Shown here: in pieces, positions 11,174 to 35,237 of the stretch
Numbering within the stretch: the first letter of the stretch is position 1
How the letters are laid out: each line of letters begins with the position of its first letter
Assembly: GCF_016056295.1 (NCBI RefSeq)
Contig: NZ_JAECZB010000023.1
Span: forward strand, 22,642-86,641
DNA: 64,000 bases
From: Atlanticothrix silvestris CENA357
GTDB taxonomy: Bacteria; Cyanobacteriota; Cyanobacteriia; Cyanobacteriales; Nostocaceae
Direction: 5' to 3'
Notes under the pieces: model-generated
Seen by the model: only the letters and a program-made list of their open reading frames with translations
Database searches by the model: none
Told to the model about the DNA's origin: nothing
Translations under genes and position numbers: made by a program

Positions 11174-11355
11174 CTATCCCTGTTCTGTCACTCTCGGAAA
11201 ACAATAATCGAAGCAATATTCTGAAACTTTGATTGAGCCAAGCTTTGAGGCTTTATTTTCTAACAGTAACTAAAATTTATAGCCAAAACTTAGAAATTAA
11301 AGCCTCGAAAGGCTTTCAGCGATTGGGTTCTCCCAAAGTGATAAAAGAGGGCTAT
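11174..11355. mobile_element. 174-bp MITE, copy A
   Basis: The element at 11178-11351 is identical over all 174 bases, in reverse orientation, to 34880-35053. Its ends form imperfect terminal inverted repeats (CCCTGTTCTGTCACTCTCGG against CCCTCTTTTATCACTTTGGG, 15 of 20 matching). A 4-bp direct repeat CTAT flanks it at 11174-11177 and 11352-11355. There is no meaningful coding capacity, so it is a non-autonomous element. Perfect identity of the two copies points to recent mobility. Confidence 0.88.
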
Positions 11356-34143: not shown

Positions 34144-34845
34144 ATGAATTACATACGTAAAACAGCACTATTCATCGGGGTAGGAGCTACTGCTATGACT
34201 CCGTTTGCTGTTCAAGCTCAAACCTGCGCTAATTCCAGCCAAACCAAACACCATTGACTAAAAGCAGACTCGATCAAATTGCCATTAATCAAGGCATTTC
34301 ATTACCTGAAGTGGGAGTAAAATTTGAAAGGTTCGCGGTTGATACTATAAAACCGGGTAATCCGATTACTCCAAACAGAAGAAAGCTTGAATCACGATTA
34401 AGGTATAGCAAAGTACGCATACTTAATGTACAACCAGATGGGATAGTTCCGCTTCCAGTTGTTACGACATTTCCTCCATTTTTTAGAGAATTGGCAGATG
34501 CAATTTTTTATGAAGCAAAAGCAGTGAAAGGCACTTTATTGCCTCCAAGCTATCAAGATTATCAAATTCTTGGTTTCCTAGACGTTCTTGGTAAAAATCC
34601 TGCACGTGCTGCTGGTGAAAACCCAGCAATTGTTTTCATGACTACATCTGATGTACGTAAAATTAGTAGAAAGACAATTGTTGAAGCTACTAGCAGAGAT
34701 ACAGGAGTTTGGCATTCCATAGCCATCGTCGATACGAATCCATTTGACAGAAGAAGATGCTAGGAATCTTTCAGAATCTCTGAGTACTTCTGTTATTTAC
34801 TATGCTGGCAGTGATACATGCGGCACTATTGAATACCATTGTTGA
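34144..34845 (+). pseudogene. Frameshifted secreted protein with nuclease-like segment
   Basis: Three frames read together as one gene. Frame 1 at 34144 encodes a signal peptide (MNYIRKTALFIG...PFAVQAQT) and stops at 34257. A second frame (open from about 34254 to 34763) carries the main domain. From about 34741 the first frame resumes with HLTEEDARNLSESLSTSVIYYAGSDTCGTIEYHC and stops at 34845. Two compensating frameshifts would restore one protein of about 230 residues. The domain has an Asp in LNVQPDGIVPLP followed by FYEAKAVKG and YQILGFLD, the spacing of a PD-(D/E)xK nuclease core as in some toxin nucleases (inference). Sequencing error is the alternative, but the next gene is also broken. 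Confidence 0.6.
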
Positions 34846-35237
34846 ATACACGCAAGCAATTGAGTTTGATCCTAATTATCCCTCTTTTATCACTTTGGGA
34901 GAACCCAATCGCTGAAAGCCTTTCGAGGCTTTAATTTCTAAGTTTTGGCTATAAATTTTAGTTACTGTTAGAAAATAAAGCCTCAAAGCTTGGCTCAATC
35001 AAAGTTTCAGAATATTGCTTCGATTATTGTTTTCCGAGAGTGACAGAACAGGGTTATGTTGAAGCTTATTTTTATCGGGGTAATGCGTTAGCTTTAGAAG
35101 GGCAACCACAAAAGGGGATTGAGGATTTACAGAAAGCTGCTACGATTTTACAATCTAGAGGACAATTAGAATGGGCGGCAGCAATGGGGCAACAAGAAGA
35201 AATTATTCGGGAAGGCATTCAAAACGGTGAATTTTGA
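34840..35237 (+). pseudogene. TPR protein remnant split by MITE copy B
   Basis: 5' piece: codons for IVEYTQAIEFDPNY up to the MITE. 3' piece after the MITE: VEAYFYRGNALALEGQPQKGIEDLQKAATILQSRGQLEWAAAMGQQEEIIREGIQNGEF and a stop at 35237. Removing the 174-bp element and one copy of its 4-bp target duplication rejoins the frame as DPNYVEAYFYRGNALAL, a perfect TPR junction. The 5' part before the first piece is missing or overlaps the preceding broken gene, so the locus was probably truncated as well as interrupted. Confidence 0.8.
34876..35057. mobile_element. 174-bp MITE, copy B
   Basis: The element at 34880-35053 is the exact reverse complement of 11178-11351. A 4-bp direct repeat TTAT flanks it at 34876-34879 and 35054-35057. 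It lies inside a TPR coding sequence whose frame is restored by its removal, which fixes the element ends precisely. Confidence 0.9.

Follow-up and report, generated by a model that had tools for sequence, protein, structure and literature searches.

A widespread 174-bp MITE in a TPR gene remnant of Atlanticothrix silvestris and its likely IS701 partner

The window analysed here is a stretch of 64,000 nucleotides from Atlanticothrix silvestris CENA357 (contig NZ_JAECZB010000023.1, positions 22,642 to 86,641 of the forward strand). At 34880-35053, on the plus strand, it carries a non-autonomous element of 174 bp, of which the genome has 21 full-length copies in all. The element is flanked by a TTAT target duplication on the left (34876-34879) and on the right (35054-35057), both read from the sequence, and its imperfect terminal inverted repeats of 15 bp are CCCTCTTTTATCACT (34880-34894, plus strand) and CCCTGTTCTGTCACT (35039-35053, minus strand), in agreement with a first reading made from the sequence only. 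That reading had also pointed to an identical copy at 11178-11351, which turns out to be the exact reverse complement of the element, in minus orientation and flanked by CTAT on both sides (11174-11177 and 11352-11355). The window was scanned with the consensus CCCTSTTYTRTCACT, derived from the element's own two ends. With up to 2 mismatches, matches were found at the four expected places only; 0.77 matches are expected by chance, and four were reached in 0 of 100 shuffles. The G+C content of the element is 37%, against 41% for the window, and neither a transposase nor a coding frame was found in its six frames, the longest open stretch being 39 codons. The element is thus short, bounded by terminal inverted repeats, devoid of transposase and surrounded by target duplications at many sites, and its ends are similar, though not identical, to those of a resident autonomous insertion sequence (IS). 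It is a miniature inverted-repeat transposable element (MITE), a known kind of mobile DNA.

The insertion lies in a gene encoding a TPR protein. The upstream remainder of this gene occupies 34839-34879 (plus strand) and joins, at about 34839, sequence found 540 bp farther upstream in L225, an orthologous locus from another genome. The 3' part runs from 35058 to a TGA stop at 35237 on the same strand and matches TPR_1 with 24.6 bits, below the Pfam cutoff of 27.8. When the flanks are joined over one TTAT, an in-frame DPNY-VEAYFYRGNALAL junction is obtained, just as the sequence-only reading had proposed. Two orthologues were examined, and both run through the site without the element, neither of them holding the 174 bases as an in-frame domain: the frame of L225 is open for 158 codons and uninterrupted through the insertion site, while L226, from another genome, is contiguous at the site and element-free but carries a stop of its own. 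The further proposal that the MITE splits a TPR gene whose frame is restored by its removal holds for the junction but not for the gene as a whole. In a comparison made with the single locus L225, the window aligns up to about 34839 with positions 1574-1684 and resumes at 2225, and the roughly 540 bp missing from the window comprise the start codon of the TPR gene and the coding sequence for about half of its protein. Removal of the element consequently restores only the frame of a remnant. Farther upstream, the same comparison shows another gap, of about 400 bp. Judged from its sequence, the TPR gene at the insertion is therefore a remnant, whatever the role of the element. A 169-aa open reading frame upstream of this remnant (34254-34763), inside the stretch where L225 has about 400 bp more, had no match in Pfam or NCBIfam.

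The insertion of the MITE may have broken the TPR gene first, the loss of the 5' half being later decay, and this order of events is given somewhat less than an even chance. The element does sit inside the TPR reading frame, which is continuous across the empty site, but the same locus is also short of both upstream stretches relative to L225, and the L226 gene is stopped without any element, which indicates that the TPR gene decays elsewhere without a MITE; moreover, the order of insertion and 5' loss is not readable from one genome. Empty sites were also sought in another genome, G075, with 20 usable insertion sites submitted. The site of the copy at L001 is empty there, in an alignment spanning 300 bp on each side. 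At the L004 site, the alignment extends only a few bases past the junction. L002 and L008 also had matches spanning the junction, with 18 bases on one side for the former and numerous repeat-like hits for the latter. For the other 16 sites, no listed match in G075 crosses the junction.

A search of the host genome (113 contigs, 6.5 Mb) with the 174-bp element returned the 21 full-length copies, of which 16 are identical to the query and five have one difference each, as well as four partial matches. Perfect 4-bp NTAN duplications flank all 21 full-length copies, always with TA in the middle (TTAA, ATAA, CTAA, TTAT, ATAG, TTAG). The idea of a non-autonomous family with both ends defined is supported by these counts. 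That the family was recently active, as had also been claimed, agrees with the many identical copies, recency itself being deduced from the 16 identical ones, which would result from recent transposition or a burst. At one further locus (L022, C49:1148-1203), the element is reduced to its first 56 bases; two open reading frames resembling another kind of transposase lie close to this piece.

Within the host family, the 174-bp query has matches in 166 of 217 genomes and 45 of 56 genera (E <= 0.001), a count that includes weak matches and matches to ends only. Among 89 copies from relatives, taken from the upper part of the match list, 77 measure 174 bp, nine 175 bp, two 173 bp and one 176 bp, and 70 have perfect duplications. 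A second length scan was run on all loci collected by then, with paired ends and duplication as the sole criteria, and gave 103 elements: 82 of 174 bp, eight of 173, 175 or 176 bp, ten of 184-186 bp, and three single elements of 44, 302 and 511 bp. A further 37 end pairs had no matching duplication. Across the order, matches were obtained in 24 of 195 genomes, of which seven belong to the host family. Four genomes of other families hold copies of 172-174 bp with 68-76% identity, one of which (in G263) has a perfect duplication that is absent from the other three. An exact interior pattern was found in four stretches of named genome contigs, all labelled Nostoc, and a search of a phage collection with the element gave no match.

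Matches were also found in 22 named plasmid records, nine of them typed as conjugative, which suggests a route of spread: plasmids would carry the 174-bp element between strains. A copy in G075 is 98% identical to the host-genome element, against 15 changes and 3 gaps in the 69 aligned columns of one intergenic stretch compared between the two genomes; with this one short control, the difference hints at a possible transfer between lineages. The Nostoc plasmid pNLP2 harbors a copy of the element with a 128-bp insert (L224:1499-1800), located between genes for an NRPS and an MFS transporter; the insert has inverted-looking ends, TAAGTAGGTGGG / CCAACCTACTTA, and is perhaps another small mobile repeat. 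Four genomes (L081, L082, L083 and L099) have copies with the common flanks GGTATTAG...TTAGGATT, which are likely to represent one old insertion inherited by all.

A very improbable explanation of this distribution takes the element for a conserved structured RNA or a regulatory sequence, incidentally repeated, the spread of which is driven by that function. Its interior is alike across genera, and its RNA fold is far better than that of shuffled sequences on both strands (z -5.7 and -5.0), the DNA fold being weaker (z -2.9, equalled by 2 of 200 shuffles). Pairing at the named positions survives in 82% of cells, and in 42-56% once the pairs are slid, a difference to be expected when the structure is derived from a single member of the alignment. 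However, target duplications and empty sites denote insertion, and over 85 sequences the pairing is 82.0%, against 81.9% in column shuffles (118 of 500 as high), with both partners changed in 19 pairs, against 16.1 after shuffling (44 of 500 as high). The open stretches of at most 39 codons also count against this explanation, and no promoter or terminator was found in the element by simple consensus. With little or no covariation in the 85 relatives, a consensus fold energy of -0.24 kcal/mol and a best Rfam match of 27.2 bits against a gathering score of 63, a conserved RNA is not supported. A good fold of the single sequence is what an element with inverted ends would give.

The element is most probably, at about 0.9, a non-autonomous MITE moved in trans by a transposase of the IS701 type. 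The end pattern, searched in the host genome with up to 2 mismatches, has 157 matches, against 72 for the reversed pattern used as a control. An intact IS of 1389 bp in the same genome (C28:77168-78556) is flanked by TTAT on both sides and has the ends CCCTCATTTGTCACT / CCCTGTTTTGTCACT; its protein is an IS701 transposase according to NCBIfam NF033540 (261.4 bits, cutoff 150) and carries the Pfam domain DDE_5. A shortened 511-bp form of this IS is found at C10, with TTAA on both sides, and further IS701 pieces with the same end motif lie at contig edges of the host genome. The best fit of the element to host-genome IS701 ends is 16 of 20 bases on the left and 17 of 20 on the right. No IS701 end among those compared in the host genome is an exact copy of an end of the element, and at the right end three IS701 groups give the same fit, so that the partner copy is not fixed. 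The expectation of an autonomous IS with the same ends and 4-bp duplications is thus borne out for the duplication, the ends being similar but not identical.

With the 174-bp query, no likeness to the interior of an IS was seen beyond the ends in the host genome, and the comparison with IS701 copies of other genomes covered their ends. Internal deletion of an IS701 copy was considered as an origin and rejected for the host genome, where the query hit nothing but full copies and four fragments of the element or of its ends; given this lack of interior similarity, the element is not a plain internal deletion of a copy found in the host genome. An end-pair scan covered 31 loci with IS701 matches, two in the host genome and 29 in relatives, with ends 900-2200 bp apart. 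An end pair was obtained at 20 of these loci, two of the pairs (L172 and L183) looking spurious by length, and a matching duplication was present in ten; the remaining 11 loci gave no pair. An IS701 match adjoins a 173-bp element at L183:1313-1485, which is flanked by ATAA on either side and has IS701-like ends but a seemingly different interior. In the proposed mechanism, an IS701 transposase would bind and cut the ends of the 174-bp element, which would insert at NTAN and leave a 4-bp duplication, as for the insertion at 34876 in the TPR gene that is now a remnant.

The distribution of the two kinds of element was compared in 99 genomes, 72 with an IS701 match and 27 without, from tables sorted by hand. 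Strong element matches (E <= 1e-40, a limit set after the tables were known) occur in 25 of the 72 genomes with IS701, the host genome included, and in 0 of the 27 without (Fisher p 1.4e-4, uncorrected for relatedness or genome size). Any element match is found in 55 of 72 and 10 of 27, respectively (Fisher p 6.4e-4, likewise uncorrected), and the weaker matches in the ten genomes without IS701 count against the partnership. Two of the 25 strong cases, G096 and G125, have only a weak IS701 match. IS5-group elements also make 4-bp TA-centred duplications, and a slightly more remote explanation than a functional RNA is that such another transposase family (IS5-like) moves the element and that its likeness to IS701 ends is convergent: no compared IS701 end is identical to its own, and open reading frames resembling transposases of other types occur near some end matches (e.g. 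L034 318-800 and L033 3-449), but these frames lie outside the end pairs, the IS701 likeness spans both ends and recurs in other genomes (20 of 31 loci with an end pair, ten of these with a matching duplication), and a 184-bp cousin described below has ends identical to those of an IS701 group.

A MITE mobilized by an IS701-type transposase can be set beside several known systems. The IS701 family itself resembles the element in its ends and in the type of 4-bp duplication, whereas its complete copy in the host genome is 1389 bp long with a transposase and the 174-bp element has none. An IS701 insertion of 1,393 bases in Tolypothrix PCC 7712 was reported from a comparison of two Tolypothrix strains (PMC9679502); this is 1389 + 4, the size of the IS plus its duplication. 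In the accessible sections of PMC6382973, MITEAba12 of the Moraxellaceae (111-114 bp, 90% at 113) is described as short, non-coding, family-wide and tight in length, with IS likeness restricted to its ends, all of which it has in common with the element, and movement in trans is inferred by its authors, as is proposed here. By contrast, its proposed partner is ISAba12, with 9-bp duplications, whereas the present case concerns IS701, 4-bp NTAN duplications, cyanobacteria and at least two length classes (PMC6382973). Nezha (Zhou 2008), active according to the title of its description, is also a cyanobacterial MITE and may be the same family. The genome of Anabaena sp. 90 was found to contain 147 MITEs, whole or partial, with lengths of 77-541 bp, and 15 of these lie in genes that are disrupted; its authors saw no evident likeness to the IS ends of that genome and suggested an autonomous mechanism (PMC3542288). 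Here, unlike in that report, IS701 elements with like ends were found. No IS701-linked MITE of cyanobacteria was found in the literature searched, as far as its accessible text goes. Overall, the element is an ordinary kind of mobile DNA with IS701 as its likely partner and a wide spread. A mini-element spread through a cyanobacterial family would thereby be linked to IS701, a group reported to insert in laboratory strains there (PMC9679502).

Elements of other lengths are related to the 174-bp one. A cousin of 184 bp, with TTAT on both sides, lies at C75:147560-147743; its ends are those of one IS701 group (20 of 20 bases at both sides), and its interior aligns with the 174-bp element at a score of 149, whereas 200 shuffles of its core averaged 96 (sd 7, maximum 115). 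A second 184-bp cousin, at C27, scores 134 (against 96, sd 8) and has no matching duplication. The 184-bp cousins are also located as L029:1061-1244 (the C75 copy) and L030:1424-1607. A query of 184 bp matches 61 of 99 family genomes (E <= 0.001), and the full-length copies among the matches listed are mostly of 184-185 bp, others measuring about 205-213 bp. Much smaller is a 44-bp palindrome (L024, C52:1223-1266) which consists of bases 1-29 of the element folded back and has TTAG on both sides; a near-identical palindrome (L025, C70:33117-33160) is without duplication. With one strict pattern, the palindrome was found at these two places of the host genome and in none of the other 207 of 208 genomes. 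This miniature may have arisen by fold-back copying and then moved.

In an alignment of 85 rows (3570 pairs), 32.6 substitutions and 0.30 indel events were counted per pair, i.e. 108 to 1. With the same aligner as for the control, the element has 20.5 substitutions to 1 indel (600 random pairs), against 55 to 11, or 5 to 1, in the sum of three short noncoding alignments, two of which share window sequence. In like terms, length is thus held about four times more tightly than in this small noncoding control, for copies chosen by match quality, which favours a tight-length result. Changes per site on the tree amount to 3.5 for bases 64-99, 3.3 and 2.7 for the ends, and 5.5 and 5.1 for two variable parts. 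A specially conserved core at bases 64-99 was rejected, the best 36-base stretch being no better than permuted sites (p 0.49). The length classes seen, 173-176, 184-186 and 204-213 bp, are too few to judge helical phasing.

A speculative and rather doubtful extension is that the interior, and not the ends alone, could be a working part, a module that sets spacing or folding within the transposition complex. The element would then represent a satellite lineage of IS701, kept at 174 bp across the host family and nearly so beyond. The elements of 184-186 bp, about one helical turn longer, would form a sister lineage with a related interior and the exact ends of a different IS701 group, and the 44-bp TTAG palindrome, a fold-back of one end that would still have been transposed, would be the smallest natural substrate. 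The tight length makes this a testable claim about the interior, and the natural series of 44, 174, 184 and 1389 bp lets one ask what the transposase needs besides the ends. Together, the fold-back miniature and the tight length are two unusual features of the element. In G075 (C2:135359-136481), a 184-bp cousin is present in two pieces about 930 bp apart, as if it had been entered by another element.
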